A stretch of 40,654 bases of DNA from Halobacteriales archaeon SW_7_65_23 (GTDB lineage: Archaea; Halobacteriota; Halobacteria; Halobacteriales; Haloarculaceae). The stretch is from the NCBI GenBank assembly GCA_003022725.1, contig PXSQ01000034.1, forward strand, positions 1-40,654. Direction: 5' to 3'. The position numbers and the translations under genes were made by a program. The notes beneath the pieces are model-generated. The model saw only the letters and a list, made by a program, of their open reading frames with translations. It did not search any database and had not been told where the DNA came from. Positions 11,089 through 29,581 of the stretch are shown here, one piece after another (within the stretch, counting starts at the first letter, position 1; each line of letters begins with the position of its first letter).

Positions 11089-11500
11089 CGGTCCAGCCTC
11101 CCGGCCGGGTCTCTCGGGTGGGAGAGGACCGGCGGCCGATCGTGGGAGTGTGACCGTGTTCGAGGCATGAGTGAGTCGGGCGTCGTGTGTCTGATTTCTT
11201 ACTCCAGATTGGGGTAAGATGGTAAGCGTGTAGCTTCCGCTTCCGAATTACAGGTTGCAGTTCAGGGGTATTGAAACAGGTGCGAAACCTGATACTACAG
11301 GTAGTTACAGTTTAGATTTACCTGGATTTGGAGTAAAACAGTCGTATGAAATGTCTGAACCACCGGGACCGCGCAGGATCCGGAAAGAGTTTCCGGAACA
11401 CCGGATTCAGACCGAATTTAATCCGGAACTGTAGTTACTCCAGTCTGTGTTTATACTGTGATATTAGTAACTTGGCTGAGGGAATCATGATTACAAGCCC
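11089..11500. promoter_or_regulatory. Repeat-rich regulatory region before wHTH gene
   Basis: There is no gene here. Two related 19-bp imperfect palindromes face each other: 11199-11217 (TTACTCCAGATTGGGGTAA) and 11318-11336 (on the minus strand TTACTCCAAATCCAGGTAA, 15 of 19 matching). A half-site, TTACTCCA, follows at 11435-11442. A TTCCGGAA palindrome is at 11391-11398 with further CCGGA blocks around it. A TATA-like GTTTATACTG at 11449-11458 precedes the wHTH start. These look like operator sites for a regulator encoded in the island. Confidence 0.5.
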
Positions 11501-11923
11501 ATGAGTGATAGCGATGAGAAGGAACTTGACGAATTCTTGGGGGAGAAAGGCGCGGTCGGGATTCTGAGTCAAATCGACCGTGACGACTCGAATACATCTG
11601 GTGAATTGAGTGATGCTGTTCGCGTCTCAGGGACCACGTATTCAAAACGTGTTGATGAAGCCCTTGCATTAGACCTGTTTGAAAGGGTCCCGAAAAAGCC
11701 CGAAGACCACGGAAACGTGAATCGATATCAGCTGACTAGACGTGGGAAGTCACTGAGAGCCGAGTTGAACTCACGCAGTGTGCTTGACACGCATCAAGCA
11801 GTCTTAGACGCAATACAGGAACTCGAAGAGGAAAAAGAGGAACTCACTGAATGGGCTTCCGACGCTGATATTGCTGACCCCGACTGGCCTTACATGGACT
11901 CCATCCCCGACGATATGCGATGA
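11501..11923 (+). CDS. Winged-helix regulator of the island
   Basis: The 140-aa protein has a winged-helix domain at about residues 8-90: GAVGILSQIDRDDSNTSGEL, then AVRVSGTTYSKRVDEAL as recognition helix, then a wing with NRYQLTRRGKSLRAEL. An acidic coiled-coil-like helix follows (QAVLDAIQELEEEKEELTEW). It resembles PadR/HxlR-like haloarchaeal regulators but I cannot assign a subfamily. The coiled coil suggests dimerisation. It is preceded by the palindrome-rich region at 11089-11500, so autoregulation is plausible. Codon use and base composition are lower in GC than in core genes. Confidence 0.75.
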   Translation: MSDSDEKELDEFLGEKGAVGILSQIDRDDSNTSGELSDAVRVSGTTYSKRVDEALALDLFERVPKKPEDHGNVNRYQLTRRGKSLRAELNSRSVLDTHQAVLDAIQELEEEKEELTEWASDADIADPDWPYMDSIPDDMR

Positions 11924-11941
11924 GGCTCCAATGGGTAGACA

Positions 11942-12589
11942 TCAGTGACGCGGCGGGGCGAGATTCTTCATGCGGAAATCAGACTTCGGGACGTATTCGC
12001 CAGCGAGGACAGCCAGTTCTCGTGTGCGTTGGATGTCCGCCAGGTTATGTAAGAGGAGTTGTTCCCATTCGGCGTTTTTGAAGGCGGTGACAGCTGCCTC
12101 ACTATCGGTGAACGGGTCGCACGTCTGTTCGCCGATTAGTTCGTCGTAGACGCCGACGAGATCGCGTGTCTCGTCCGTGTCGAACCGGTCAGTGACGGCA
12201 AGCATGTCGGCGTACGCCATGTCGGGGAACGGCCACTGCACGTCGCAAGTGACACAGGCGGTTCGGAGGAACGGCAGGTCGAATCCGCCGTTCCAGGTTT
12301 CGCCGTGATATGCGGTCAGATACTGCGCGTCGGTGTTGATGCGGTCGGCACTGATTTCTGCCAGCGTCGTCAGCAGCGCATGTTCGTCCGCACAGGCGGT
12401 CAGGTCGAGACGTCCGGCCGAGTGGGTATTGAGTCGGGCTTCCAGGCTGTCGGTGTCTACGCGCCGGCCAGCCGTGTTCAACAGGATGACTTCGCCAAGC
12501 TCGAACGCGAGGCCGGCGACCGTGATGACCGCACCGGGTTCTAATCCGCTCGTTTCGATATCGAACGCTATGGGGGCAAGCTCTCCCAT
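11942..12589 (-). CDS. RNase H-fold 3'-5' exonuclease (DEDD type)
   Basis: The 215-aa protein has the acidic motifs of DnaQ-like exonucleases. Exo I is FDIETSGLEPG, Exo II is an asparagine-glycine-rich stretch with an aspartate (ETWNGGFDLPFLRTAC), and Exo III is LLHNLADIQRTREL with the final aspartate. It should be a two-metal 3'-5' exonuclease acting on DNA or RNA. No polymerase domain is attached. It lies directly downstream of the orc1 gene on the same strand, 96 bp apart, so a role in processing during replication of the element is a fair guess. A TTCCGGAA site lies 45 bp upstream of its start. Confidence 0.72.
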   Translation of the reverse strand: MGELAPIAFDIETSGLEPGAVITVAGLAFELGEVILLNTAGRRVDTDSLEARLNTHSAGRLDLTACADEHALLTTLAEISADRINTDAQYLTAYHGETWNGGFDLPFLRTACVTCDVQWPFPDMAYADMLAVTDRFDTDETRDLVGVYDELIGEQTCDPFTDSEAAVTAFKNAEWEQLLLHNLADIQRTRELAVLAGEYVPKSDFRMKNLAPPRH

Positions 12590-12633
12590 GCACGACCCCT
12601 GACTACCTGTCTACAAGGGCGTAACCGGGGTGT

Positions 12634-12641
12634 TTCCGGAA
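12634..12641. promoter_or_regulatory. TTCCGGAA palindrome upstream of exonuclease
   Basis: The same 8-bp palindrome occurs upstream of orc1 (13747-13754) and upstream of the wHTH gene (11391-11398). It could be an operator shared within the island. With only three promoter-proximal copies this is a hypothesis. Confidence 0.35.
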
Positions 12642-12685
12642 TTCTCAAAACGTCCTGTTGAATCATTATGACCCGTGGAGAGACG

Positions 12686-13693
12686 TTACGTGACAGGGTG
12701 ATAGCGCCGGTCTTTCGTGTTGCCTTCGCTCCGAATCAGATCGTACTGCTCCAGCTTCGTCAGGTAGTTACGCATGGTTCGTTGTGTCTTCGGGTTCTTC
12801 ACACGAGTACAGTACTCGTCGTAGAGGTCACCACTGCGAATCCCGTCGTGCCCTGTGATGATTTCGTAGATGATTTGCTGGTCGTCAGTAAGTCTCTCCG
12901 TGGTTTCCTGTTGGACCTCGGCTATGGCTTCCGGAACCGCGTTCCGAATCACGTCATTCGTGATCTCGTCGTGGTCGTTCTGGACAGCGAATTGTGTCGC
13001 GTTGCGGAGAATCCCGATTGCAACGCGAGCGTCACCCGCTGCGTGATTAGCGATTTTCTCTAGTCCGTCGTCGTCGATGACTCCGGGTTCAAGCCCCCAC
13101 TGCGCGCGGTCACGCAGGATAGCGACCAACTCGGACAGGTTGTACTGCCCGAATTTGATGCGGACGCAACTCTGGAGACGGCTGCGAAGACGCTCATCGA
13201 GGAAGCTGAAGACGTCCTCTTCCCGGTTGGCGATGAGAATGAGCGTGAGGTTCGGTGTCCGGTGCAGGTCGTACAGCACGTCCTTGTCTTGGAGCTGGTC
13301 TACTTCATCGAGGATCACAACATAGTGCGGACCGTCATAGGCACGGAGTCGGTCAAGTAGCTCGTCCCGCGGTGTGGACTGCCGGTGAATGTCGAGTGTC
13401 TCATTGATGCCGTCAAGCACTGCGTACAGCGTTTTGAAGCGACTGTACTTCTCCCAACAGTTGACGTACTGGTGATTCAGGTCAACGACGTTCTCTCGGA
13501 GTTGCGTGACTGTGTGCCTGGCGATGCAGGTCTTCCCCGCCCCGGGCGGTCCAGTCAGAAACGATGGTGTCGGGTGGCCTTCGTTCGTTGCGATTGGGCG
13601 GAGCGTGTCCGATAAGTGACTCACTTCGGCATCCCGGTGCTTGACCTCACCAGGAATGAATTCCGGCTGTAAGACCCGGGCGTTCGTGATCAT
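12686..13693 (-). CDS. orc1: Orc1/Cdc6-type replication initiator
   Basis: The 335-aa protein is an AAA+ ATPase of the archaeal Orc1/Cdc6 family. Walker A is GPPGAGKT in [16 protein letters not shown], Walker B is [10 protein letters not shown], sensor 1 is LILIANRE, and [10 protein letters not shown] near residue 215 is the sensor 2 region. The last 80 residues form a winged helix with [16 protein letters not shown]. It is shorter than the usual chromosomal Orc1 and more divergent, as is common for initiators of plasmids or integrated elements. It should bind origin repeats and load the replicative helicase. The upstream region holds several inverted repeats that could be its targets. Position in a lower-GC island suggests it came with a replicon. 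Confidence 0.9.
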
Positions 13694-13905
13694 GGCGTGT
13701 CGACTGACTTCCAGAATAATAAGTGGAAGCGTGTACTTTCCGAATCTTCCGGAATAGCGTATAGATGCAAGGATGGGACTTCCAAAATATCCCGAATGGG
13801 ATTGGATTTCTTGGAAGAGCTTATAGAGAGTCGTACGAGAAGGGTGATGATATCCGGTAATTTTCAGGGTTAAGGGTCGGAAAGGCCGGTTTCTTATTGT
13901 AAGCG
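13694..13905. repeat. Candidate Orc1-binding iterons / origin region
   Basis: Directly upstream of orc1 lie nested inverted repeats. CTTCCA at 13708-13713 pairs with TGGAAG at 13724-13729, and ACTTCCAA at 13778-13785 pairs with TTGGAAG at 13811-13817. Inside the second pair is ATCCC-GAAT-GGGAT (13789-13802). A TTCCGGAA site is at 13747-13754. An A/T-rich tract follows at 13909-13919. Haloarchaeal origins typically sit beside an orc1 gene with inverted repeats flanking AT-rich DNA, so this may be the origin of the element. I could not match the repeats to a known ORB consensus from memory. Confidence 0.45.
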
Positions 13906-13919
13906 AACTTTTTTATATT

Positions 13920-14030
13920 CACGTCCTCTAATCTCAGGTGAGGACGCAGGTCACTCCCTTGCCTTTGTGGCGGGGACTGACCTGGCAAGCATGTGCGGTC
14001 ACAGCGCACGTGTGCTGACGTCCGGCGGTT
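13920..14030 (+). ncRNA. Candidate structured small RNA with three hairpins
   Basis: After an A/T-rich TATA-like stretch (TTTTTTATATTC, 13909-13920) come three consecutive hairpins in about 95 nt. The first is CGTCCTC/GAGGACG (13922-13946, perfect 7-bp stem). The second is CAGGTCA/TGACCTG (13947-13984), continued after one C-C mismatch by TCCC/GGGA and then GCC/GGC. The third is AGCA plus GTGCG paired with CGCAC and TGCT (13988-14016). No protein frame covers this stretch. The order TATA then hairpins favours a plus-strand RNA. Alternatives are an origin with cruciforms, or the 3' end of the minus-strand gene that stops at 14039. The ends are approximate. Confidence 0.45.
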
Positions 14031-14038
14031 CCTTTCCG

Positions 14039-14926
14039 TTACAACTCATCCAGCAGGTACCCTTGTACGACATCCGATTGTAACCGATTAGCGAGTGAAT
14101 GAAGTGGTTGATCCCCCCACACATCATCCGATGAAGGTCGGCGTCCCTCGATCCATGCAGCCGCACGGTCGTGTTTTTGTTGTGATTGTCGTCGGTTACG
14201 GGAACGAAGGCTGTAGAGTGTAGAAGGAGGATCATCTGAGACATTCCAAGAGTCATCAATCCGCTGAATATCACACCCGAGTCCTTCAATACCACCTTCA
14301 GGAAGTTGGCTTCTGATGTATCCAGCAATATAATCTGCTGCAGTTATTTCTGGATAAACCCGGTCTCCATCTTGGAGTTGCGTGATGTATACCGGAGTAA
14401 CTCGGTCGCCAAATCCATTGAATTGCCGTGTGGCTGCTCGTCGGAAGAGTTCTTGGCGAGAACCGTACATCCGAGAACCACCGTCATGAACCAGGGCTGC
14501 AGGGCCTTCATATTCCGGAATAGAGCCGGAACCACCAGTTAAGGCTTTGCTGGCGACAATACAGGCTGTAGCAGCTCGCTGATCAACAGTATACGTTCCC
14601 CACCCTGCAACGGCGTGCCACGTAATCGGGCTAGAGTCGAAAGAGGAGAGTAGTTGCTCAATAGTTCCTGATAACTCCGTTCCAGACATGCCTTGTGGGG
14701 TTGAACTTGACTTACTCTTCCACGGTTTGAGTCCGAGCTCAATGAGTAATTCGGCAAGAAGTTCTCCATGCGATCGCGGGCACTGGACGGCAGTCATAAC
14801 GAACGGCCCGTCATGATGATTACCAGATTCATCAATCCCAACCACATGACTAGCATGTTGAACCGGTGGTTGTGTATCAACCACACCGTGCTCAAGCAAC
14901 TCAATTTCCCGCAGCCCCGACGACAT
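14039..14926 (-). CDS. RNase H-like fold protein, function unknown
   Basis: The 295-aa protein begins, after about 28 residues, with HVVGIDESGNHHDGPFVMTA. This recalls the first beta strand and catalytic aspartate of RNase H-like proteins such as the DUF3800 or DUF2209 groups. Later acidic candidates are in ALVHDGGSRM and ITAADYIAGYIRSQ, which would fit a DDD/DED metal site. The C-terminus is basic and helical. I do not recognise the exact family and no activity can be claimed. It lies between the candidate RNA/origin region and the helix-hairpin-helix gene. A nuclease acting on island DNA or RNA is an inference. Confidence 0.5.
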   Translation of the reverse strand: MSSGLREIELLEHGVVDTQPPVQHASHVVGIDESGNHHDGPFVMTAVQCPRSHGELLAELLIELGLKPWKSKSSSTPQGMSGTELSGTIEQLLSSFDSSPITWHAVAGWGTYTVDQRAATACIVASKALTGGSGSIPEYEGPAALVHDGGSRMYGSRQELFRRAATRQFNGFGDRVTPVYITQLQDGDRVYPEITAADYIAGYIRSQLPEGGIEGLGCDIQRIDDSWNVSDDPPSTLYSLRSRNRRQSQQKHDRAAAWIEGRRPSSDDVWGDQPLHSLANRLQSDVVQGYLLDEL

Positions 14927-15072
14927 CTATACTGTTCCATAATAAGTACGTGCTGGATAAAAACCCTCAGCAAACAGACTACTGCTTTGGGAGGCTGCTC
15001 ACTTCCCAATTGAGACGATTTACAGAAGTTTATTTGAAACCACGCCGAACTGCTAAGTAGGCGATTTCAAGA

Positions 15073-15657
15073 ATGAAGGAAGACGACGCACGCGAACTTC
15101 GTCACGAACTAAGCCAGGAAATCGGGTCAGGGTGGGGTGTTCAACACGCGGAGAAAGATGTTAGTGAAGTCAGACGGCGAGTCAATTGGACTGTGACTGT
15201 CGTCCAGAAAAACAACCTCAGCAGAGAATTCAGACTCCCGCAATCCCTGTTTGAATTCGTTGATGACTATGACCTGTGGGTGGATGTTGATGCATCTGAC
15301 CGGCGCGCAAAAATAACGTTGGACAACAAGGAATACAACGAGCTTGAGTTGACGGAAGCTGAGAAAGAACGCGAAGAATTGGAGGCCGCGATTCGTAGTG
15401 AGTTCGACTTGAACAGAGACGGTGTGGAAGCGCTTGCTGATGAGTACGATTCGGTTGATGAGATACTTGCAGCCTCACGGGAAGAACTGACTTCTGTCAA
15501 GGGAATCAGCGACCGACGAGCAAACAAGATCCTGCACCGGCACAGCAGCAAGTTAGCAAAACGTATGCGAGAAACCAGCGACAGTCGGACCATTCCGGTC
15601 ATTGAAGACGAGGATGGAGTCCTTCGATTACCTGAAGAACTAGAAGACTCTGACTGA
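15073..15657 (+). CDS. Helix-hairpin-helix DNA-binding protein
   Basis: The 194-aa protein has an N-terminal alpha/beta part (about residues 1-95, including DYDLWVDVDASDRRAKITL), a charged helix (ELTEAEKEREELEAAIRSEF) and a C-terminal tandem helix-hairpin-helix region. That region reads DSVDEILAASREELTSVKGI followed by SDRRANKILHR. The KGIS hairpin resembles the HhH domains of XPF/Hef and other structure-binding proteins that contact the DNA backbone without sequence specificity. No nuclease motif is visible. The N-terminal domain is not recognised. It is divergent from the RNase H-like gene across 146 bp. Confidence 0.7.
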   Translation: MKEDDARELRHELSQEIGSGWGVQHAEKDVSEVRRRVNWTVTVVQKNNLSREFRLPQSLFEFVDDYDLWVDVDASDRRAKITLDNKEYNELELTEAEKEREELEAAIRSEFDLNRDGVEALADEYDSVDEILAASREELTSVKGISDRRANKILHRHSSKLAKRMRETSDSRTIPVIEDEDGVLRLPEELEDSD

Positions 15658-15688
15658 ACACCAGAGAAGTCCCTGGAGAGCGCTTAGT

Positions 15689-16156
15689 TTAGTCGCTCAT
15701 TGCTTTCGGCCGGACAGGGGTTGTCGGTGTCTTCACCGTTTCAGCGATGTACTTCCGCATCTCAACGTCATCACTCACTGATGCGACGTCAACACCGAGA
15801 TCGTCGAGCCCGCACCGGTCCAACGCGCGTTTTAATTCACGAATGACGTACTCACCGTACGAGAATTCGGACGTGTGGTTCGAGAGCGGGACCCACCGGT
15901 ACCCGTTTCGCTCACGTCCACGGTCGGTCGCAACGACCAGGAACACGTGCACGGTCTTCTCAACCGGCATCGCACCACCGTACCGATAACTGTACTGCTC
16001 AGAACACGTCGTGAACCCCCACTCATTGACCGCCGGGCAATCCTGCAGGAGCTCTTCAGCTGCCTCTTTCAAGCTCGTTGTAGTGACGTCAACAGTTTTT
16101 TTTCGGGAGTTTCGTGCCGTTACCGGTGTCGTGAGCGATGCATTCAACCGGGTCAT
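15689..16156 (-). CDS. Hypothetical protein of the island
   Basis: The 155-aa protein is not recognised. Its N-terminus is basic and threonine-rich (residues 1-25). The middle has alternating hydrophobic strands (KTVHVFLVVATDRG, then GYRWVPLSNHTSEFSYGEYV), followed by a helix (VIRELKRALDRCGLDDLG). Three cysteines are scattered without a metal-binding pattern. The ATG at 16156 is chosen; an ATG at 16171 is in frame. It is convergent with the helix-hairpin-helix gene, 31 bp away. Confidence 0.6.
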   Translation of the reverse strand: MTRLNASLTTPVTARNSRKKTVDVTTTSLKEAAEELLQDCPAVNEWGFTTCSEQYSYRYGGAMPVEKTVHVFLVVATDRGRERNGYRWVPLSNHTSEFSYGEYVIRELKRALDRCGLDDLGVDVASVSDDVEMRKYIAETVKTPTTPVRPKAMSD

Positions 16157-16274
16157 CGGGTGGCCCGACAACGAGGATCGCGGCCGCAGTTCGTTGTTCC
16201 ATCGTTGACTGTGATTTTATGTGCCAGGCGTATCAAGATACGCATAATGAGTCGAACGCCGCCGTAGTTAATGA

Positions 16275-16598
16275 TCAGTTAGAACCATCACCTGTTGGGC
16301 AGGGGGAGCGACTGTTTTCACACACATCCATTGCCATCAGCATGTGGTTCAACGCATCAGCAAAATGCCGTTCAGCAGGCGCTCTTTGCCCGGCATGTGC
16401 GTAGTCACGAGCTTGGAATAATTCATCACAGGCTTTCCAAATATGCCACCTGGCTTCGGGAGCACCTGGTCGCAACCAGTTCTTTCCCTCCCCGTTGTCC
16501 TCAATGTTTCGTGCGTACTGGTCTTCAGCAGTCGCTATTAACGATACCAGCATCTCTCGCGGGTACCCGAGGTCATCGACAGTCTCTGAATCGGTCAT
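16275..16598 (-). CDS. Hypothetical helical protein of the island
   Basis: The 107-aa protein appears all-helical, with aromatic and histidine residues in the middle (PEARWHIWKACDELFQARDY, then ERHFADALNHMLMAMDVCE). I do not recognise it. The regular spacing of hydrophobic residues and the acidic N-terminus support a real protein. It lies upstream of the 155-aa gene on the same strand with a 118-bp gap. Confidence 0.55.
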   Translation of the reverse strand: MTDSETVDDLGYPREMLVSLIATAEDQYARNIEDNGEGKNWLRPGAPEARWHIWKACDELFQARDYAHAGQRAPAERHFADALNHMLMAMDVCENSRSPCPTGDGSN

Positions 16599-16830
16599 TC
16601 GCTACTCACCACACCTGGATTCGGGTGTTCAGTGCCACTAGCATAGTATTTAGAGTACATACATAACAGAATGGTGTTGAACGGGATATACAGTCGGAAA
16701 GTCATCCTGCCGGGAAACGTCGAATACCATCCGAGAATTCTATTCTATCCCTATCACTCAATTTTGGACGCTGAACCTGGCTATTATTTGTCCAAGGTTT
16801 AACCCGGTGAAGCGTAATAAATACCGTAGC
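16599..16830. other. Intergenic AT-rich region
   Basis: There is no gene. The stretch is lower in GC than the rest of the window and must hold the promoters of the divergent units on either side. Candidate TATA-like sequences are TAGTATTTAGAGTAC near 16645 and GCTATTATTTG near 16777. Confidence 0.4.
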
Positions 16831-16956
16831 ATGAATACAGAGTTAAACGATCTTGCTGTTACTCCCAAGAGTACCACGGAAACTCGATTGTTCAGTGCCT
16901 CTGATTTTGAGACAGCCAATCAGACTGCAGACACGTTGGAGGAATTACTAGGATGA
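16831..16956 (+). CDS. 41-aa ORF coupled to next gene
   Basis: This short frame (starting MNTELNDLAV, ending TADTLEELLG) is too small for most gene finders. It ends in a TGA that overlaps the ATG of the following gene (ATGA), and GGAGG lies 11 bases before that ATG, so the pair is translationally coupled. The peptide is acidic, with a disordered-looking N-terminus and a short C-terminal helix (FETANQTADTLEELLG). I do not recognise it. An antitoxin or leader role is possible but unproven. Confidence 0.55.
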   Translation: MNTELNDLAVTPKSTTETRLFSASDFETANQTADTLEELLG

Positions 16957-17375
16957 CCGACGACCACTCTACAGAAAATGGTTCATACGATACTCCACCT
17001 GAGACGCCCGACCCGCCGATGTACAAGGAATGGGAAGATGTTGAAACGTGGTCAAAGGTAAATCTTCGCTACCCGGTTCCTGGCGGGTGGGATATCGACG
17101 ACCACGGAAAGTTTCACACGACGTGGAAGCATGAAGACGGTGCAATACTGACGCGATCTTCGAAGCGAACACCGGGTCCGAAAGACACGTTCGCATTTAC
17201 ACTCAACGGTAAAGAGATCCACCGTGTTAATACCGGGCCTGAACGGCAAGAGATGCGCGAAGAGACGGTCTGGTTGCTCACGTTCTACGACGACCATGAG
17301 AATGTAGACTCACCGGAATCATTTCAACAAGAAATTCGAAAACAACAGAACACGTCGTTAAGTGATTTCGCATGA
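16953..17375 (+). CDS. Hypothetical protein, second gene of coupled pair
   Basis: The 140-aa protein has an acidic disordered N-terminus (about 25 residues) and then a compact domain rich in Trp and Tyr: MYKEWEDVETWSKVNLRYPV, GGWDIDDHGKFHTTWKHEDG, then TFAFTLNGKEIHRV and ETVWLLTFYDDHENV. The latter strands look like a small beta sheet. It is not recognised. Start choice is supported by the GGAGG ribosome-binding site at 16938-16942 inside the upstream ORF. It is the last gene before base composition returns to that of the core chromosome. Confidence 0.65.
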   Translation: MTDDHSTENGSYDTPPETPDPPMYKEWEDVETWSKVNLRYPVPGGWDIDDHGKFHTTWKHEDGAILTRSSKRTPGPKDTFAFTLNGKEIHRVNTGPERQEMREETVWLLTFYDDHENVDSPESFQQEIRKQQNTSLSDFA

Positions 17376-17531
17376 GCGAGAGTAGCCCCGAAATGGTTCT
17401 TCAACAATCCCATAGTTAGTTCAGCACAGGAGAATCTGATCCGTGAACATTTCATGTCGTTCGCAACTACAGGTCCCGCGCGCAGCAGCCACTGGGGGTG
17501 TTGTGCCAGCGAAAGCTGCGCTGTCCAGGGG

Positions 17532-18371
17532 TTATCGGCCGTTCCACTCGGGGTCGCGGTCCTCGAAGAACGCGTCGATCCCCTCGTTTTTGTCCTCGGT
17601 GGAGAACAGCGTCGTGAACAGTTCGGCCTCGTACTCGATGCCCGCTTCGAGGTCCATCCGGGAACTCGCTTTGACGGCTTTCTTGGCGATCTCCAGGGCG
17701 ACGGGGCTCTTGTCGGCCATCGACCCGGCGAGGCCGTACACCTCCTCGTCGAGTTCGTCCTCGTCCTCGCAGACGACATCGACGAGGCCGATCTCGCGGG
17801 CCTCGTGGGCGTCGATCAGTTCGCCCGAGAGGATGAGACGCATCGCCTGGCCCTCGCCGACGAGGCGGGGGAGGCGCTGGGTCGCGCCGCCGCCGGGGAT
17901 CAGCCCGAGGTTGATCTCCGGCTGGCCGAGTTTCGCCCGCTCGTGGGCGATCCGGACGTCGCAGGCCTGGGCGAGTTCCGAGCCGCCGCCGAGCGCGTGG
18001 CCGTTCAGTCGCGCGATGACGGGCTGGGAGAGCCCCTCGACGACCTCGTAGACCCGCGGTCGCTTGCCGATCTCGCGCTGTTCGATGGCGTCGCGCTCGC
18101 GGAACTCGCCGACGTCGGCGCCAGCGACGAACGCCTTCGCCTCTGCGGCGCCCGTCAGAACGACGACCCGGACGTCGCTGTCCTCGATGGCCGCCACGAC
18201 GTCTTTCAGCTCCGCCCGGAGCTGTGCGTTCAGGGCGTTGCGCGCGTCTGGCCGATCGAGCGTCACCGTCGCCACGCCGGAGACGTGCTCGCCGACGCTG
18301 GCTCCGAGCAGGTCACAGTCGGCCGCCGTCTTCTCGATGTCGTCGGCGCCGTCGACGCGATCTTCAGCCAT
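17532..18371 (-). CDS. Enoyl-CoA hydratase/isomerase family protein
   Basis: The 279-aa protein has a crotonase fold and should act on acyl-CoA thioesters, most likely hydrating enoyl-CoA in fatty-acid breakdown. LDRPDARNALNAQL, AFVAGADVGEF and NGHALGGGSELAQACD form the CoA and oxyanion-hole segments. EINLGLIPGGGATQRLPRLV contains the expected catalytic glutamate and glycine-rich loop. Residues 1-35 are an extra acidic extension. The ATG at 18371 is backed by AGGAGG about 10 bases upstream. A TATA-like GGATATAAAAATAACC (minus strand, about 18470-18485) lies ~100 bp upstream. The exact substrate cannot be told from sequence. Confidence 0.9.
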   Translation of the reverse strand: MAEDRVDGADDIEKTAADCDLLGASVGEHVSGVATVTLDRPDARNALNAQLRAELKDVVAAIEDSDVRVVVLTGAAEAKAFVAGADVGEFRERDAIEQREIGKRPRVYEVVEGLSQPVIARLNGHALGGGSELAQACDVRIAHERAKLGQPEINLGLIPGGGATQRLPRLVGEGQAMRLILSGELIDAHEAREIGLVDVVCEDEDELDEEVYGLAGSMADKSPVALEIAKKAVKASSRMDLEAGIEYEAELFTTLFSTEDKNEGIDAFFEDRDPEWNGR

Positions 18372-18483
18372 CGCTCCGTCCCTCCTGTCGCTGTCTGTTT
18401 CGACCCATGTCGGGATCATCCGCCGGCCGCACAAAAGTCGTTTCCGCCGCTAGGAGTGGTTGGTTGATCGGTTATTTTTATAT

Positions 18484-18600
18484 CCTTCGCGGCGCGCGCT
18501 CGTGAGCGTGCCCGAAGGGCCGCGAACAGACACCGTGCGAGGGAAGCGCGCAACGAGGCGCGCGAGTCGAGCGGGCGGGGGCTTTCAGCGTGCTCGTCGG
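18484..18600. repeat. GC-rich intergenic repeat ending GGGGGCTTTCAG
   Basis: A GC-rich block with many GCGCGC/CGAGCG inversions ends with GGGGGCTTTCAG. It is similar in style to the blocks at 18908-19020 and 33162-33376, which end CCTCGCCCTTTCAG. No protein is encoded. Confidence 0.5.
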
Positions 18601-18638
18601 TGCAATAACGACAGTGGAAATTCCTCGCAAGCCGGCGC

Positions 18639-18791
18639 CTACAGAATGAACAGGAACACGATCACCAGGAGCAGCAGCAACACGATCGAGTAGACGATCA
18701 TGCTAACGATGAACGACAGGATCTTGAAGGGCAGTAGGACCAGCTTTACGGGCAATGTCACGAGATTCCAGAGGGTGTTGAGCAAGCCCAT
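18639..18791 (-). CDS. Small two-segment membrane protein
   Basis: The 50-aa protein is almost entirely hydrophobic: an amphipathic start (MGLLNTLWNLVTLPVKLVLL) and then a long stretch FIVSMIVYSIVLLLLLVIVF that must cross the membrane once or as a hairpin. The ATG at 18791 is chosen because the preceding in-frame residues are polar and unlike a membrane protein start; an ATG at 18812 is an alternative. Small membrane proteins of this look are frequent in haloarchaea, but I cannot assign a function. Confidence 0.72.
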   Translation of the reverse strand: MGLLNTLWNLVTLPVKLVLLPFKILSFIVSMIVYSIVLLLLLVIVFLFIL

Positions 18792-18907
18792 TGTACCGGC
18801 GCTTGGTGCCATGCCGGTATCCGTTTGATGGCTCCGTTTCGCGTTCGAACCTGTTGTATGGCTCTCTGCGCTAGAAACCACCGTTGCAGCATTTGCTCAT
18901 CGAGTAG

Positions 18908-19020
18908 CGAAGAAAGCCCTCGGTGCGCTCGTGACGCCGCGGCTCGCTGCGCGCTTCGCTCACTGCGTTCGCTCCAGTGTTTGCGTCGCCGGGGCGCCGA
19001 CGAGCGCACCTCGCCCTTTC
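18908..19020. repeat. GC-rich intergenic repeat interrupted by a MITE
   Basis: Begins CGAAGAAAGCCCTCGG and ends CACCTCGCCCTTTC, matching the element at 33162-33376, which starts with the same 16 bases and ends CGCCTCGCCCTTTCAGTCC. Here the CTTTC is cut from its continuation AGTCCGCCAGGAA (19132 onward) by the MITE at 19021-19130. Confidence 0.75.
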
Positions 19021-19130
19021 ATAGTGATTGTTGTGACTCTTTAGGCCGGGCATTCGTCAGACTCCAGTTTCAGGCCGTGAAACTGCCGTTAGTGCGATGT
19101 AGCGCCGAAAACAATCACAATAATCACTAT
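19021..19130 (-). mobile_element. MITE copy 1 (110 bp, 19-bp terminal inverted repeats)
   Basis: Left end ATAGTGATTGTTGTGACTC and right end, read inward, ATAGTGATTATTGTGATTG form near-perfect terminal inverted repeats. The inside contains a hairpin, CAGTTTCA/TGAAACTG. The reverse complement matches the element at 20607-20717 over its whole length, including the internal hairpin, so I list this copy on the minus strand. It has no coding capacity. It is inserted in the GC-rich repeat at 18908. Confidence 0.88.
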
Positions 19131-19269
19131 CAGTCCGCCAGGAACGGGGTCCGGTGGGCCGGTAGAACCACGGTGAGCTCTCCAATCGGCAGCATAGCCG
19201 AGGGCCGGTTGTGCAGACGAGTTTCCAACCGTCCCTGGTTCTTTGCCGTGGCAGTCCGAAGGGGGGCCC
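19131..19269. other. Upstream region of beta-propeller gene
   Basis: The first bases (CAGTCCGCCAGGAA) continue the repeat that was split by MITE copy 1. No clear TATA box is visible, so the promoter of the beta-propeller gene may lie in or before the MITE. Confidence 0.4.
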
Positions 19270-20607
19270 ATGTCCGACAACTCCGGGGAGGGTGCCTCCG
19301 ATCGACGCGACGACCTCTACCCCAACGCTGGCGACGAAGCGGAGACGGGCGGTCGGGACCTCGCCCGGCGCTCGCTGCTCGCCGGTTCCGCTGCCGTCGG
19401 CGCGACCGTCACCGCCGGCTGCCTGGGTGAAGACGACGGTGGCAACGACGACAGCGACGACGGCGCCAACGGCAATGACGATCCGGCAGTCGTCGAGCGG
19501 CCGACGGTGTTCGTCTCGAACACCGGCGACGGCAGCGTGACGATCATCGACGCCGACGACCGGGAGGTCGTCGAGACTCGGACGATCGGCGTCGCCACGT
19601 CGTTCCCCTCCAACCAGTTCACCCCGCAACTGGCCGACGCCGCCGGCGACCCGCTGTGGGTCAACGCCGGCGACGGCGTCCGTGCGCTCGCCGCCGGCAC
19701 GCTGGCCGAACTGGCGCGCCAGGAAACCGGCTCCGGCGCGAACTGGCAGGAGCTGACCCCCGACGGCGAGCACCTGCTCGTGAGCGCCCGTGAGCCTGCT
19801 CACACCAACTACCGCCTCGATGCCGACCCCGACTCGGGGACGTTCGGCGAGGTGACCGGCGAACTCGATCGGACGTCGGAGGGCGGCCGCGGCGACGAGG
19901 AGGGTCCGGGCCCCTGCGACGTCACCGTCCACCCCGACGGCGCGTACGCCTACGTGCCGGATCTGTTCGGCGACACGCTCACCGTGCTCGACGTCGAGGC
20001 GTTCGAGATCGCGACGCAGGTCGACGTCGAATCGAGCGACGGCAGCACGCCGCCCGAGCCCTGGATGGGCACCGCAGCCTGGGACGGCGAATCGCTGTTG
20101 ATCGAGCACAACGAGGGCAACGCGGGCAGCGAGAGCATTTGGGACGTTAGCGACCCCGCCGACCCCGTCGAGCGTGCCCGGCTGACGCCCGACGACGGGA
20201 TGGGCGAGGGGCCGCTGACCAGCGAGATCGGCCCCGACTCCGCGTTCGGTTACGTGTTCGCGCCCGGCTCGAACGACGTGACCGTCGTGGACATTGAGGC
20301 CGGGACGGTCGAGAACCGGCTCGACCTCGGCGGATCAGCGTTCGCCGGCACGTGGGATCCTGCCCGGGAGTTCCTCTACGTCCCCGTGCAGGACGCCGGC
20401 GAGGTGGCCGTGATCGACGCCGCCGAGCGGGAGATCGTCACGCGTCTCGAAACCGGCCCGGAGCCGTACGGCGCCACCGCCGCGACGGTCCGGCCGGCCG
20501 AGGGCGAGGGAGCGGGCGGCTCGACCGCCGAACGGCTGTCGGCGCTGACCGGCAGCTACGAGACGACCTACTGCGTCGTCGACTGCGCCTGCGGCCACCG
20601 GCTGTGA
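19270..20607 (+). CDS. Tat-exported beta-propeller lipoprotein (YVTN/YncE-like)
   Basis: The 445-aa protein has a twin-arginine signal with R33-R34 and a lipobox ending at C51 (ATVTAGC), then a low-complexity acidic linker. It should therefore be folded, exported and lipid-anchored outside the cell. From about residue 80 it shows beta-propeller blades of the YVTN type: TVFVSNTGDGSVTIIDADD, AYVPDLFGDTLTVLDVEAF, GYVFAPGSNDVTVVDIEAGT, and LYVPVQDAGEVAVIDAAERE. The last 15 residues contain a cysteine cluster, CVVDCACGH, that could bind a metal. The stop codon TGA takes its A from the first base of MITE copy 2, so the native C-terminus may have been different. The start at 19270 omits nine upstream residues. 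Confidence 0.85.
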   Translation: MSDNSGEGASDRRDDLYPNAGDEAETGGRDLARRSLLAGSAAVGATVTAGCLGEDDGGNDDSDDGANGNDDPAVVERPTVFVSNTGDGSVTIIDADDREVVETRTIGVATSFPSNQFTPQLADAAGDPLWVNAGDGVRALAAGTLAELARQETGSGANWQELTPDGEHLLVSAREPAHTNYRLDADPDSGTFGEVTGELDRTSEGGRGDEEGPGPCDVTVHPDGAYAYVPDLFGDTLTVLDVEAFEIATQVDVESSDGSTPPEPWMGTAAWDGESLLIEHNEGNAGSESIWDVSDPADPVERARLTPDDGMGEGPLTSEIGPDSAFGYVFAPGSNDVTVVDIEAGTVENRLDLGGSAFAGTWDPAREFLYVPVQDAGEVAVIDAAEREIVTRLETGPEPYGATAATVRPAEGEGAGGSTAERLSALTGSYETTYCVVDCACGHRL

Positions 20608-20717
20608 TAGTGATTGTTGTGATTGTTTTCGGCACTCCATCGCAATATCGGTAGTTTCACGATCTGAAACCGGAGTCTGACGAGAGCACGGCGGTAACGA
20701 CTCACAACAATCACTAT
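20607..20717 (+). mobile_element. MITE copy 2 (111 bp)
   Basis: Begins ATAGTGATTGTTGTGATTG and ends with the inverted sequence ACAACAATCACTAT. It is homologous to the reverse complement of 19021-19130 across its length, and the internal hairpin (AGTTTCA-cgatc-TGAAAC) is kept. It abuts the beta-propeller gene and lies before the halocyanin gene. Together with copy 1 it frames a 1.5-kb segment in inverted orientation. Confidence 0.88.
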
Positions 20718-20885
20718 GAGTGCCGGAGCCGGCCACCGACTCCCGCTGCCGAGAGTGGCACGTCGACGGCTGGTTGCGAAACGCCACCCGCTCGCAGGCA
20801 GTCGAGCAACGACCTCCGGCTGGGCGCGAGTTACGCAAAACTCACCTGCCCTTATCCACCCCATGAACTGTAGACTCAGCTGCAA

Positions 20886-23027
20886 ATGAGTAACCGTTCA
20901 CTTCGCGATCGGCGGACTGTCTTGCAAGCGCTCGGTGCTGGCTCCCTCGTCGCGCTCGCTGGCTGTAGCGGCTCCGACAACGACGGCGGTAACGGGAACG
21001 GCAACGGGAATGGGAACGGTTCGATGGAGGGGGTTCCGGGCGCCGACGTGCTCGGCGGGCCTGACGACCTCCAGTCGTCGGCGACCGTCGAGGCGCTGTC
21101 GCTGGATTCGGACCAGGGTGCGGGGCAGAACGTGTTCTCGCCCGCGGTCGTCTGGGTCGAGCAGGGTGCGACCGTGACCTGGGAGAACGTCAGCGGCAGT
21201 CACTCCGCGACGTCGTACCACCCGAACAACGACAGGCCGCTCCGGATACCGGAGGGCGCGTCGTCGTTCAACTCCGGCGTCATGACCGAGGGGGACACCC
21301 ACGACCACACGTTCGACGAACCCGGCGTGTACAACTACTACTGCAGCCCCCACGAGGGGCTGGGGATGGTCGGCCTGGTCGTCGTCTCGGAGGCGGCGCC
21401 CGGTCCGGGCACCGAACCGGTCGAGGACGTCGACAGCGGCGCCGTGGCTGACGGCCTCACCTCGCTGCTGGACCTCGCCGGCATCGACGTGGAGCCGGCC
21501 GAGAGCACGTACGGCTGGACGGACGCCACCTGGGATTCGTACTGGTACTCGCTGTACAACATGAGCACCAACATCGCGATGGCCGGCAACGGCGTCCCGT
21601 TCCCGCTGAACGACCAGATGGCCCAACTGCGCGACCAGCGGCTGCCCGCGATGCTGGAGAACGCAGACACGGACCGTCCGCCGGTCAACAACCCCAACCT
21701 GACGTTCGCGGCGTTCACCAGCGGCGATCCGTCGTTCACCCAGCAGCCCGTGCTGGAGGACGATACCGGGCGGCCGGACGCCTCGACGCTCGCCTGGGAC
21801 CCCGAGACGTCCTCGGGCGTCGTCAGCCCCTCGTCGCTGGCCTGGACCCACCTCAAGGGCGTCACCTGGGCGAAGAACTTTCAGAAACACTTCGACGCCC
21901 TGCCGACCGCGATGGCGCCGAAGTTCCGCGCACAGCTGCTCACGACGCTCGCGCAGGTCGGCATCAACGCCGCCATCCTCGTCGGCGGCTCCTGCGGCAA
22001 CGGCGCGCTGACCCACGGCGACTCCTTCGAGTTCCTCTCGGAGTACCGGCCCGCGGCGGGCCGGATCGAGGACGAGACGCGCCGCCCCCACCACCACGCG
22101 GCGATGCTGTGGTTCCTCGGGGACATGACCAGCCTCGCCCGGAACGGCTGGTTCGGCTACGTCAACCCCGTCCCGCTGCTCCCGAAAGACGCCGACAGCG
22201 AGGCGGTGTTCGACCCGCCGGTCGGCATCCAGGAGATCACTGACGGCGTCGCTCAGGCGACGATGGGGCTGTTCGACCCGGCCGACGTCGTCGAGCAGGA
22301 GTCGACGCGCTCTGCGGGGCTGTTGCTCGCCGCCGTCAGGTACTACGGCCCGCAGGCCGGCAGCGACGACGCCCATGCAGCAGCGGTGGAGTACACCAAC
22401 GGCCTCGCCGAGGAGATCGAGGAACACGTCGCCGACGACGGCCGGGTCGAGGACGGCGCCGCCAACCAGGCCGCGACCCAGGGGATCGTCGCCCAGGGGC
22501 TGGTGTGGGCCTCCGAACTCGACGGCGTCGACTACACCGAGACTGCCGAGGACGTGCTGGGCTACCTCCTCAAGGACCTGTGGGATGACGACGCCAGCAC
22601 GTTCGCGACGGGCGTCGGCGACGACACCTACACCATCACGCCGCAGGACGCCGGCGACATCACCGGGGGGATCAACGCCGCCGACGCCGTCCTCGGGATG
22701 GACGTCAAAGAGCAGTACGCCCGCTACTTCGACCAGACGGTCAACCGCGGCCGCCTGCAGCGCGCCGAGCGGACGCCCTCCCGGGACGGGAGCGCCGAGC
22801 ACATGCTGCCGCTGCCGCCGAACGCCCGCGGCGAGCACGGCCAGGCCGCCGTCTACAACGCCGAGATCGAGTACGACACCGGCGCCGACGAGTGGACGGT
22901 CACCGACGATTCCTTCGACACCGAGGCGTCACTGTACCTCGCCAACCAGGAGATCTGGATCAGCCAGTGGGGCGGGGACTTCTACCAGGGCCGGGGCGTC
23001 CCCGGCGGGAACGACACGCCGGAGTAG
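20886..23027 (+). CDS. Tat lipoprotein: halocyanin domain fused to a large helical domain
   Basis: The 713-aa protein starts with a twin-arginine signal (RDRRTVLQALGAGSLVALAG) and lipobox cysteine C27, then a Gly-Asn repeat linker. Residues ~60-170 are a blue-copper domain with all four type 1 ligands visible: H106 (SGSHSATS), C153, H156 and M161 (YCSPHEGLGM). The remaining ~540 residues are not recognised. They are rich in helices with repeated AA.LL patterns and conserved-looking segments such as RPHHHAAMLWFLGDMT, WFGYVNPVPLLPKD and SQWGGDFYQGRG, which suggest a helical barrel or toroid. The copper domain should pass or receive electrons at the outer membrane face. It follows the beta-propeller gene on the same strand, with MITE copy 2 in the gap. 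Confidence 0.85.
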   Translation: MSNRSLRDRRTVLQALGAGSLVALAGCSGSDNDGGNGNGNGNGNGSMEGVPGADVLGGPDDLQSSATVEALSLDSDQGAGQNVFSPAVVWVEQGATVTWENVSGSHSATSYHPNNDRPLRIPEGASSFNSGVMTEGDTHDHTFDEPGVYNYYCSPHEGLGMVGLVVVSEAAPGPGTEPVEDVDSGAVADGLTSLLDLAGIDVEPAESTYGWTDATWDSYWYSLYNMSTNIAMAGNGVPFPLNDQMAQLRDQRLPAMLENADTDRPPVNNPNLTFAAFTSGDPSFTQQPVLEDDTGRPDASTLAWDPETSSGVVSPSSLAWTHLKGVTWAKNFQKHFDALPTAMAPKFRAQLLTTLAQVGINAAILVGGSCGNGALTHGDSFEFLSEYRPAAGRIEDETRRPHHHAAMLWFLGDMTSLARNGWFGYVNPVPLLPKDADSEAVFDPPVGIQEITDGVAQATMGLFDPADVVEQESTRSAGLLLAAVRYYGPQAGSDDAHAAAVEYTNGLAEEIEEHVADDGRVEDGAANQAATQGIVAQGLVWASELDGVDYTETAEDVLGYLLKDLWDDDASTFATGVGDDTYTITPQDAGDITGGINAADAVLGMDVKEQYARYFDQTVNRGRLQRAERTPSRDGSAEHMLPLPPNARGEHGQAAVYNAEIEYDTGADEWTVTDDSFDTEASLYLANQEIWISQWGGDFYQGRGVPGGNDTPE

Positions 23028-23072
23028 CCGCACCGGTCGCCGGACCGTCTCCAGACTCGCTCGCTGTCGGTC

Positions 23073-23107
23073 ATACTGGTGAGTAAAAGAATTATAGCCA
23101 CCAGTAT
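23073..23107. repeat. 35-bp inverted repeat between convergent genes
   Basis: ATACTGGTG (23073-23081) is mirrored by CACCAGTAT (23099-23107) with an AT-rich loop. The right arm and loop match 141-161, and the left arm plus loop resembles 7288-7305. It overlaps the stop codon of the TRAP permease. It may serve as a two-way terminator or be a minimal transposable relic. Confidence 0.65.
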
Positions 23108-26004
23108 CAGGTATCGGAGGGCTGGAAGGTCGCGGCGTCCTGCTCCGATTCGCGCTCGCCGGCCGCGGTGGCCGTCCGGCGGTTCCGGGTGGTGAGCACG
23201 ACGAACAGGATCGCGCCGACGAGCCGGAGTAGCAGGTCGAACGTGAGCGTGTCGAGCGTGACCGTGACGCCGGCGAGGCCGAGCAGCCCCTCGACGAACA
23301 GCAGCACGAGGGCCGGCACCATCAACAGCAGTGAGACGAGCGAGTACAGCGACCGCCCACTCCGCGAGACCGGGCCGTACTGGTAGCCGATGATGGCGAC
23401 CCCGAGGGCGTAGACGCCGGCGAACATCCCCACGATCGGGATCAGCACGTCCGGGATGACGAAGCCCGGATCGGTCAGTTCAGCGACGCCGAGCAGCGTC
23501 ACCTCCCGCGGGTTGTCAGTCGAGCTGATGAGCGCGATCCCGGGGTACAGCACGAATGCGAACGGCACGGTGATCTTGTTCAGCGACAGGAGGAAGGCGA
23601 GCTTTCCGGTCGCGAACGGTTCGGACTTCGCGACGCCGCTTGCGGCGTAGGCCGCGACCATCACCGGCGGCGTGACGTCGGCCATCAGCCCGAAGTACAG
23701 CACGAACAGGTGCGCGAGCAGGAGCGCGACGCCGAACTCCTGGAGCGCGCCGCCGAGCACCGAGACGAGGATGATGTACATCACCGTGGTCGGCATCCCC
23801 ATCCCGAGGATCACGGCGGAGATGGCGGCGAACACGAGCAGCAGGATGAACGACTCCCGGCTGGCGACGATCACCAGCCGGGTCAGGTTCGGGCCGAGGC
23901 CGGTGACACTGATGACACCGGGGATGACGCCCGCCGCCGCCACTGCCACGACGACGATCGTGGCGGTCTTCGCGCCGGACTCCATCGACTTCAGGACGAA
24001 CCCGGCGAACCGACCCGGCTGGGTCGCGCCCAGCGACAGCCCCGTCCGCTCGTCGAACGCGTCGATCGACTCCGTGACGTCGTCGTTGAGATCGAGCACC
24101 GGCGAGTCCATCCGCGGTCGCAGCACCATCACTGCGATCCCGAGGAGGATCGCGCCGACGCCGAGGCTGCCGACGAGCGTGGAGACGATCGCTTCCTGGA
24201 GCCCGGCGCTACTTCCCCGCGCCCCCTGCAGGTACGCGACGAACGACTCGCCGGCGAGCAACTGTGTCGCGACCGACGCGAGCGTCAGGAGCGCGAACGC
24301 GGCCAGCAGCGGGACGCGCGTCCGCTCGTCGTAGGCGGCCACGAGCGCGATGAGCGCGACGGTTGCGACGATGGTGAACCAGCCCGACCGGTTGATCGAC
24401 AGTCGGGCGATCACCAGGAAGTACAAAAGCAGCAACACCGGGAAGAAGTAGAACCAGCCGCGGCGGAGCTGGGGCCAGATGTCCGGCAGCTCCGCCCGCG
24501 GGACGCCGCCGACGCCGCGCCGGACCGCCTCGAAGTGGACCATCACCCACATCCCGAAGAAAAAGGCCAGCGCCGGCAGCGCCGCCGCGACGATCACCAC
24601 CCGGTACGGCGTGCCCGTGAACTCGACGATGAGGAACGCGGCGGCGCCCATCACCGGCGGGAGAATCTGGCCGCCCGAGGACACGGAGGACTCGACCGCG
24701 CCGGAGAACTCCGGCGTGTACCCCGAGCGCTTCATCAGCGGGATGGTGAACGCGCCGGTCGTGACGGTGTTGGCGACCGACGACCCCGAAAGCATTCCCA
24801 TAAAGCCCGAGGAGACGACGCTCGCCTTCGCCGGCCCGCCGCGGCGCGTCCCCGTCGCCGAGTACGCCAGGTCGATGAACCACTTGCCCGCCCCCGACAT
24901 CTCCAGGAACGCGCCAAAGAGGATGAAGATGAAGATGAAACGGACGCTCACCGTCACCGGCACCCCGAGGATGCCCGCCTCGGTGTTGTACCACATGTCC
25001 CGGACGATGCTCGCCCAGGATTTCTCGGTGATCGCAAGGATGCCGACCCAGTCGAACAGCACGTCCACGGGCGCGAGGCCCGTGTCGGTGCTCCGCGGAA
25101 TGTGGTGCCCGAGCCGCGCGTAGGCGATGAACACCGTGACGAGCGACATTAGCAGGAAGCCCAGCGCCCGCCTCGTGGCCTCGATGACCAGCACGATGGC
25201 CAGCACGCCCATCACGAACGCCCAGGAGGTGTCTGCGAGCGGTCCGACGGCGAGTGGTTCGAGCGCGGGGTACACCTCCGGCAGCGGCCGGCCGGCCTGC
25301 ACGCCGAACAGCCGGAGGGTGTTCTGGATCTCCTCGAACTCCGTGAGCATGTAGAACGGCGGCAGCAACGAGAGGGCGATCAGCACCACGTCGACCGGGG
25401 ACACCCGGTGGCGTTTCTCGTCGACGATCGCCCACCCGAACAACGCCCGCACGCGGTCGACGGCGGCGGTCACGGGGCTTTCCTCCCCGAACTGGCTTCG
25501 GGTAGCTGCGGGGATCCGAGCCGCGGCCCGGGCGACGCGCCCCTCGCCGGTCGAGGCCGGGAACATCAGGAACGCGAGGACGAGCCCGAACGTCACGTGG
25601 ATCGCGTTGAGCTGCAGCAGCTGGAGGTCCGCGAGACGGACCGTGCCGACGAAGGGGACGGTCGCCTCGAAGGTGAACCCGCGGGCTGCGATCCACATCT
25701 GGAACGCCGAGAACGTGATCGCGATGACCGTCACCGCGACGGCCGCCCAGCCACTCAGCGACCGCTTGTGTTCGACCTCCTCGAGGACCTCGTCGACGTC
25801 CTCGACGGCGGCGTCCTCGATCGTCTCCTCTTCGAGTATCTCCCTGTCCTTCCCGCCGCGGTCGCCCGTGCTGCGTGGGCTCCGTGGCTCGTTCGATGCT
25901 GAACCCCGTGACTCGCCCGACGCTGGGTCCCGCGGCTCGTCCGGCGCCGGATCGTCGCCGGAGTCGTCGGTCGGATCGTCGCCGGGATCGGACTGGTCGG
26001 TCAT
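23107..26004 (-). CDS. TRAP transporter fused permease (TAXI type, DctQM-like)
   Basis: The 965-aa membrane protein is the fused small and large permease of a TRAP transporter. After a ~80-residue acidic cytoplasmic N-terminus, a first block of membrane segments (residues ~85-270) corresponds to DctQ. A second block of 12 or more segments corresponds to DctM, with GGGQILPP-type motifs visible as SSVSSGGQILPPVMGAAAFL and MGMPTTVMYIILVSVLGGAL. Family knowledge: such permeases use the ion gradient to move a solute handed over by an extracytoplasmic binding protein. It is the last gene of a three-gene operon whose first gene encodes that binding protein. Solutes of TAXI systems are often carboxylates, but none can be named here. 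Confidence 0.93.
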   Translation of the reverse strand: MTDQSDPGDDPTDDSGDDPAPDEPRDPASGESRGSASNEPRSPRSTGDRGGKDREILEEETIEDAAVEDVDEVLEEVEHKRSLSGWAAVAVTVIAITFSAFQMWIAARGFTFEATVPFVGTVRLADLQLLQLNAIHVTFGLVLAFLMFPASTGEGRVARAAARIPAATRSQFGEESPVTAAVDRVRALFGWAIVDEKRHRVSPVDVVLIALSLLPPFYMLTEFEEIQNTLRLFGVQAGRPLPEVYPALEPLAVGPLADTSWAFVMGVLAIVLVIEATRRALGFLLMSLVTVFIAYARLGHHIPRSTDTGLAPVDVLFDWVGILAITEKSWASIVRDMWYNTEAGILGVPVTVSVRFIFIFILFGAFLEMSGAGKWFIDLAYSATGTRRGGPAKASVVSSGFMGMLSGSSVANTVTTGAFTIPLMKRSGYTPEFSGAVESSVSSGGQILPPVMGAAAFLIVEFTGTPYRVVIVAAALPALAFFFGMWVMVHFEAVRRGVGGVPRAELPDIWPQLRRGWFYFFPVLLLLYFLVIARLSINRSGWFTIVATVALIALVAAYDERTRVPLLAAFALLTLASVATQLLAGESFVAYLQGARGSSAGLQEAIVSTLVGSLGVGAILLGIAVMVLRPRMDSPVLDLNDDVTESIDAFDERTGLSLGATQPGRFAGFVLKSMESGAKTATIVVVAVAAAGVIPGVISVTGLGPNLTRLVIVASRESFILLLVFAAISAVILGMGMPTTVMYIILVSVLGGALQEFGVALLLAHLFVLYFGLMADVTPPVMVAAYAASGVAKSEPFATGKLAFLLSLNKITVPFAFVLYPGIALISSTDNPREVTLLGVAELTDPGFVIPDVLIPIVGMFAGVYALGVAIIGYQYGPVSRSGRSLYSLVSLLLMVPALVLLFVEGLLGLAGVTVTLDTLTFDLLLRLVGAILFVVLTTRNRRTATAAGERESEQDAATFQPSDT

Positions 26005-27637: not shown

Positions 27638-27778
27638 TTCCCGTTATACCATTTAAAGTTTATAACTATCTACAGTTCACGTTCCGTTCGGCTCGGGAGG
27701 CAACTACGTTGTCGCCGTCGACGGCGGGTGACATACGTCACTCCGTCCTTTTTGTCCCCAGCGACCGAACCCGCACCC

Positions 27779-28399
27779 ATGCCACGCACAGCAGTGATCG
27801 CGGGAGTCGGCCCCGGACTCGGGGAATCGCTCGCCGACCTCGGGGAGCACGCCCTGGCCGTCCGGACGGACGTCACGGACCGGGAGCAGGTCGAATCGGG
27901 CTTCGAGACGGTCCGGGAGGCCTTTGGCCCCGTCGACGTGCTCGTCAACCACGCCAGCGGCGGCGCCTGGAAGGGGCTCCGGGGGATCGACCCCGGGGAG
28001 TTCGAGCGGGCGATGGCGGTCGGGCCGACGGGCGGTCTGCTTTGCTCGCAGGAAGCCGTCGCCGACATGCAGGAGGAGGGCGGGACGATCATCTTCACCG
28101 GCGCGACGTCGGCAGTCCGGGGCCGCGGCGGTGCGATCGGGTTCAGCGCCGCCAAGTTCGCGGTCCGCGGGATGGCCGAGTCGATGGCGCGCGAACTCGG
28201 CCCCGAGGGGATCCACGTTGCCCACGTCGTCATCGACGGCCAGATCGCGACGCCCGGCGCGGTCGCTGGCACGGATCGCGATGAGGAGGAATTCCTTGAC
28301 CCCGACGCCATCGCCGACTCCTACTGGCACCTCGTCGACCAGGAACGCTCCTCGTGGACGCTGGAACTCGACCTGCGCCCGCACGTCGAGGAGTTCTGA
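27779..28399 (+). CDS. Short-chain dehydrogenase/reductase with apparent N-terminal internal deletion
   Basis: The 206-aa protein belongs to the SDR family. The glycine-rich GVGPGLGES near residue 8, the NHASGG segment after strand 4 (VDVLVNHASGGAWKGL) and GFSAAKFAVRGMAESMAREL with the catalytic-type lysine are visible. However, the glycine motif is followed at once by LADLGEHALAVRTDVTD, which normally comes some 25-30 residues later. The helix and second strand that fix the adenosine part of NAD(P) therefore seem to be missing, with the frame kept. The catalytic tyrosine position reads F (GFSAAKF) rather than Y. It may be a remnant or a non-enzymatic member. Confidence 0.75.
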   Translation: MPRTAVIAGVGPGLGESLADLGEHALAVRTDVTDREQVESGFETVREAFGPVDVLVNHASGGAWKGLRGIDPGEFERAMAVGPTGGLLCSQEAVADMQEEGGTIIFTGATSAVRGRGGAIGFSAAKFAVRGMAESMARELGPEGIHVAHVVIDGQIATPGAVAGTDRDEEEFLDPDAIADSYWHLVDQERSSWTLELDLRPHVEEF

Positions 28400-28461
28400 C
28401 GGCCGTCGAGACGTTCTGACGACCACGAGCGACCGGAGAGCCCGGGTCCCCGGTGAATCAC

Positions 28462-28668: not shown

Positions 28669-28726
28669 GGCTATCACGAGGAACGCGAGCAAGAAGATGA
28701 TTGCGTTGTACTGCACCGCCTTGTTC

Positions 28727-29545: not shown

Positions 29546-29581
29546 ACGCAGCGGCGGCGCGGCCGCAGGATCCCCCGCCAG

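Follow-up and report, generated by a model that had tools for sequence, protein, structure and literature searches.

The locus and its two inverted repeats

The window, as the term is used here, is the whole stretch of 40,654 nt that was analysed (contig PXSQ01000034.1 of Halobacteriales archaeon SW_7_65_23). Near its middle lies a lipoprotein gene with a short, MITE-like repeat on either side, each repeat bordered by its own 3-bp target-site duplication (TSD). The features of this region are as follows (nt positions of the window).

17532–18434, minus strand: left neighbour, enoyl-CoA hydratase
19019–19021: outer half of the TSD of the left copy, TCA
19022–19129, minus strand: left MITE copy, 108 bp (one base under 109), of the same subfamily as copies on contigs C49 and C8 of the same genome (G000)
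19130–19132: inner half of the TSD of the left copy, TCA
19270–20607, plus strand: enclosed gene, a Tat-type lipoprotein (RRSLLAGSAAVGATVTAGCLG) with YVTN/YncE-like beta-propeller repeats (TIGR02276, 42.5 bits against a cut-off of 27.85)
20605–20607, plus strand: inner half of the TSD of the right copy, TGA, which is also the stop codon of the enclosed gene
20608–20716, plus strand: right MITE copy, 109 bp, with its nearest relative on contig C36 of the same genome (88%)
20717–20719: outer half of the TSD of the right copy, TGA
20886–23027, plus strand: right neighbour, halocyanin-domain (copper-binding) lipoprotein

A sequence-only reading of this DNA had described repeats at nt 19021–19130 and 20607–20717, with 19-bp terminal repeats and an internal hairpin, enclosing exactly one gene. 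The two repeats do exist, in opposite orientations and with 85.3% identity to each other, but their borders are corrected here to nt 19022–19129 and 20608–20716, and the terminal repeat common to both is 15 bp long (TAGTGATTGTTGTGA). The right copy matches the proposed 19-mer exactly at its left end, and this is the only exact match; the equivalent end of the left copy differs by one base, and at the opposite end of both copies the agreement stops after 15–16 bases. An internal hairpin (GTTTCA...TGAAAC) is found in both window copies, yet it is not a conserved structure across the family. The left copy lies in the 5' region of the enclosed gene, some 140 bp before its ATG, and is closer to the copies on contigs C49 (L013, 95.4% identity) and C8 (L003, 94.5%) than to its partner. 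At the other end of the gene, the TGA stop is followed by an in-frame TAG TGA contributed by the right copy.

The count of one gene stands, since the plus-strand ORF at nt 19270–20607 is the single coding ORF between the copies. Orthologues of this lipoprotein gene are widespread across the host's taxonomic family, and it is an ordinary gene, not a gene of a mobile element.

Two further features of the window were recorded. The region at nt 9116–17479 (about 8.4 kb), which carries Cdc6-lid and RNase-H-like ORF fragments, is missing between the flanking genes in the related genome SW_10_66_29 (L221), and is therefore probably an inserted element adjoining the locus. An intergenic, GC-rich repeat of about 100 bp (nt 36865–36964, and L224:8207–8315) is 81% identical between species and unrelated to the MITE.

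An abundant MITE family of Halovenus and relatives

The repeats are MITEs: they are short, carry no transposase gene, and have terminal inverted repeats, a TSD of fixed length, and many dispersed copies with evidence of movement. In the window's own genome (2.63 Mb in 115 contigs, 79% complete) the terminal repeat, allowing up to one mismatch, gave 177 matches, or about 88 elements, against none for a reversed control pattern, and a DNA search of the same genome returned at least 42 MITE matches from the 40 of 114 candidates that were scored. On these capped counts the copy number in this genome is roughly put at 40–90.

Of 82 copies gathered from the window's genome and those of relatives, 70 measure 109 bp and 8 measure 108 bp, lengths that leave no coding capacity for a transposase. 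A matching 3-bp TSD borders 72 of the 82 (39 TCA, 31 TGA, 2 others), and the target extends beyond it, with C before and G after the TSA, followed by A or T and then G or C, giving a 9-bp near-palindrome, SWC-TSA-GWS. When 29 divergent copies are aligned without gaps, the outer 26 or so bases prove conserved and the middle variable. At the 15 paired positions of the terminal repeats 99% of cells are paired, with concerted changes in five of the 15 pairs. Queries made by joining the flanks of a copy detected empty sites in sister species, contiguous and with a single TSA; for the copy on contig C10 of the window's genome, for example, a sister species shows 96% identity across the site and a single TCA. 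Since the sister species carry such empty sites, members of the family must have moved. Other insertions are held in common with sister species.

The element of about 110 bp recurs in related genomes, where the sequence-only reading had proposed to look for it. The window's species and two sister species (G006 and G007) carry it in abundance, and diverged copies, mostly still of 109 bp, occur in Halovenus salina (G002, contig 4 of which corresponds to the H. salina plasmid NZ_CP112975), in G014, G010 and G013, and in a second genus, represented by G027. It constitutes a new haloarchaeal MITE family, found for the most part in Halovenus and a single related genus, that was previously unnamed in the literature searched, is still dispersed, and has an unusually clean target rule. 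A search for the terminal-repeat string in published text, with most subscription papers and ISfinder outside its scope, returned no relevant paper. Viral contigs gave no match to the longer element pattern, and the 16-base matches seen there may be due to chance.

Several related repeats were seen in the same searches. An 80-bp variant with the same terminal repeats and an unrelated, shorter middle is present at G000:C8:47675–47754, G000:C17:14978–15057, L158:1954–2033 and L152:1501–1580, and may use the same transposase as the 109-bp MITE. MITEs nested in MITEs at one internal TSA occur at G000:C8:11089–11226, G000:C21:19982–20119 and G007:C96:9953–10173; as the identical nested junction recurs at several loci, movement of the nested units as such is possible. 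Another repeat family, also about 110 bp long (AGACAGCCAGACGTGACTCC... and ...GTGAACTACGTCTGGCTGTAT), flanks L030 and L005 (contigs C29 and C87 of the window's genome), and dozens of its copies occur in G006 and G007.

Concentration of insertions on stop codons

The right window copy is one of a large class of insertions at stop codons. When the element and one TSD were excised in silico, 26 of 68 clean insertions fell exactly on the TGA that terminates a coding ORF in frame. Of the remainder, 10 were found up to 80 bp past a stop, 18 up to 150 bp ahead of a start and 4 within ORFs, and 10 were more distant. For the background, every TSA site in some 140 kb of related sequence was weighted with a target matrix derived solely from insertions outside stop codons. 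Using a simple codon-usage gene caller, a sampled background and a nine-base matrix, stops accounted for 26 of the 54 insertions at stop, 3' and 5' sites, against 12–13% expected (p ~1e-10). Per 1000 weight units, usage was about 490 for stops, 56 for the 3' flank and 79 for the 5' flank, so that per available site a stop was used about eightfold more than the next 80 bp downstream (p = 4e-10). The result was unchanged under an altered gene-calling threshold.

The empty sites of sister species bear the identical stop codons, and the window itself supplies the empty site (GACGACTAACG, CTAA) for a stop-codon insertion of G006 at GACGACTGA. Because the empty sites carry the stop already, the stops precede the insertions. 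The concentration could result either from targeting or from strong selection for harmless sites. That the integration machinery itself prefers stops is quite possible, and we place it slightly short of probable: the element would insert into TGA, duplicate TGA, and begin with TAGTGA, so providing a safe harbour for up to about 100 copies in a gene-dense genome, with a transposase that was not found in the host genomes as searched. No report of a stop-codon preference was found in a literature search conducted mostly outside subscription papers and without ISfinder. If targeting is involved, and not selection alone, the family offers a testable case of a transposon that spares its host by means of stop codons, and the preference offers a route to the missing transposase.

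The strong concentration exactly on stop codons, together with the conservation of length and subterminal motifs over related genera, might also suggest that the element is retained because it works as a signal, in DNA or RNA, where genes end (for example a terminator or mRNA-end hairpin, like REP sequences) and is no transposon relic. This is unlikely, as the empty sites and species-specific insertions mark it as mobile, and 18 of the 68 copies lie upstream of genes. Nor was the central hairpin supported as a conserved RNA structure, covariation being confined to the terminal repeats, and there was no Rfam match in the stretch from nt 17000 to 23500 of the window.

Gene order in related genomes

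In QH_2_65_14 (G010, contig PXQO01000109) the hydratase and lipoprotein genes are adjacent and arranged as in the window, with no MITE between them. On the other side, contig C47 of G006 (L224) retains the first 56 or so codons of the lipoprotein gene, followed directly by the homologue of window nt 27737–33114; because the 5' part of the gene directly precedes this homologue, the right-hand neighbourhood is evidently common to G006, which has suffered a deletion. The fusion lies at L224:8635–8637, and the halocyanin, TRAP transporter, DUF1850 and substrate-binding genes are gone. The comparison covers the two sides unequally: where the right copy sits, the sister genomes either end or carry a deletion, and among the relatives compared there is no intact gene with the window's downstream neighbour. 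Taken together, the gene order indicates that the window gene stands at its inherited position.

In SW_10_66_29 (G007) a MITE is found 124 bp upstream of the lipoprotein gene, with TGA duplications, of another subfamily, and with a different gene beyond it; G006 retains a 22-bp remnant of this insertion. A single ancestral insertion giving rise to both this element and the left copy of the window was considered; TSD, subfamily and distance to the gene all differ. From these differences the two are more likely independent insertions; gene conversion could also lie behind them. By this comparison, MITEs appear to have struck the left side of this gene at least twice within the genus.

The left neighbour of the gene in SW_10_66_29 and G006 is another hydratase (35% identical), with the MITE between, and since the neighbour beyond the MITE differs, a local rearrangement near the MITE took place in that lineage. 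The same arrangement speaks for a reading in which homologous recombination between MITEs at different loci brought the gene to its place in the window, the left copy being the rearrangement junction. We consider this improbable, because the window's left neighbour is that of the outgroup QH_2_65_14, and because matching TSDs, which recombination through an element usually scrambles, are retained by the two window copies and by that of SW_10_66_29.

Two probably independent insertions

Very probably, the two window copies are members of one abundant, non-autonomous element that inserted independently beside one ordinary gene. The inverted copies with intact ends around a single gene had been read from the sequence as a composite, MITE-mobilised cassette. 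A unit transposed via its outer ends would have equal outer duplications, and its inner flanks would not be duplications. The outer TSD halves at this locus are unequal, TCA at the left and TGA at the right, and an intact duplication borders each copy, so the cassette reading fails. The two copies also come from different subfamilies.

The framing itself is expected at this density. For 67–114 randomly placed copies, chance would produce 1.6–4.5 gaps of 1–2 kb (three are seen among the listed positions) and 1.6–5.1 genes bracketed in neighbouring spacers. Other close pairs of copies in the same genome, on contigs C27 and C59, likewise have their own duplications per copy, unequal outer ends, and unrelated genes between them (two on C27, one of them HisI-like and probably hisI, and three on C59). 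Given so dense a family with a habit of inserting at TGA stops, a gene framed by a pair of MITEs is an expected by-product, and the framing is no evidence that the gene travels with them.

A check for the whole unit at other loci had also been proposed, with the gene's presence in place without MITEs as evidence against a cassette; the gene is single copy in its own genome, apart from one very weak match, and the left side of the locus is found without a MITE in QH_2_65_14. That the 1.7-kb unit has been moved, or can be moved, by a transposase working at the two outer ends is very improbable, and already contradicted for past movement, for although MITE-flanked passenger genes are known in bacteria (PMC10969869, PMC6382973), the unequal outer duplications, the two subfamilies, the chance-expected bracketing, the single-copy gene in what appears its ancestral position on both sides, and the near-constant length of 109 bp over many copies, which argues against easy movement of longer units, all stand against it. 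A cassette would have meant gene mobilisation in an archaeon, and the locus should not be recorded as such. It serves rather as a warning that, at high copy number, finding one gene between two MITEs says little in favour of a cassette.

Proposed mechanism and the search for a transposase

In the mechanism proposed for these independent insertions, a DDE-type transposase supplied in trans would pair the two 15-bp ends. The collected copies show that the family inserts at SWC-TSA-GWS and duplicates the central TSA. The right copy took the gene's own TGA stop as its target; the duplicated TGA restores the stop and the TAGTGA of the element adds two in-frame stops, so the protein is unaffected.

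An IS with the terminal repeats of the MITE, for which the sequence-only reading had suggested a search, did not come to light. None of the PF01609 transposase genes in four genomes (G000, G006, G007 and G027) has the MITE's ends, IS1031-type transposases (PF13586, PF13340) are absent from the six genomes searched, and nowhere in the complete H. salina genome do two MITE ends lie at IS distance. An autonomous partner was also not found by the end pattern in the window's own genome (79% complete) or in the annotation of the H. salina plasmid. As no transposase with matching ends was found, mobilisation in trans is inferred. The lack of a partner is not in itself unusual, since MITEs with no functional partner are on record in Haloquadratum (PMC3119063).

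Comparison with known systems

The IS1031 group of the IS5 family makes a 3-bp TNA target duplication. The MITE family shares this feature, which is a lead only: no IS1031-type transposase was present in the six genomes searched, and no PF01609 gene with the MITE's ends in the four.

In Acinetobacter and E. coli, MITE-flanked resistance cassettes have identical MITE copies and recur as a unit (PMC10969869, PMC6382973). The window resembles them in that two MITE copies bracket a passenger gene, but its copies are 85% identical, have unequal outer duplications, and show no second occurrence.

Closer parallels are found among the haloarchaea. The HqIRS MITEs of Haloquadratum walsbyi are short, non-coding elements with terminal inverted repeats, TSDs and tens of copies, some of them without a functional transposase partner (PMC3119063), and the window family is likewise short and non-coding, with terminal inverted repeats, TSDs and tens of copies. 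In a comparison by description and not by sequence, the part of PMC3119063 used here describes neither a stop-codon preference nor a near-constant length of 109 bp for HqIRS. The SMR-A elements of Haloquadratum (HqIRS42/43/55) are about 110 bp long with prominent terminal inverted repeats and up to 54 copies, and their mobilisation is unexplained; they insert into PATE/IS605 palindromes without duplicating the target (PMC3119063). The window MITE is of similar length, with prominent terminal inverted repeats and many copies. Membership of SMR-A was rejected, as the window family makes a TSA duplication: set against SMR-A as there described (PMC3119063), the window MITE duplicates TSA and targets SWCTSAGWS, often at a stop codon.
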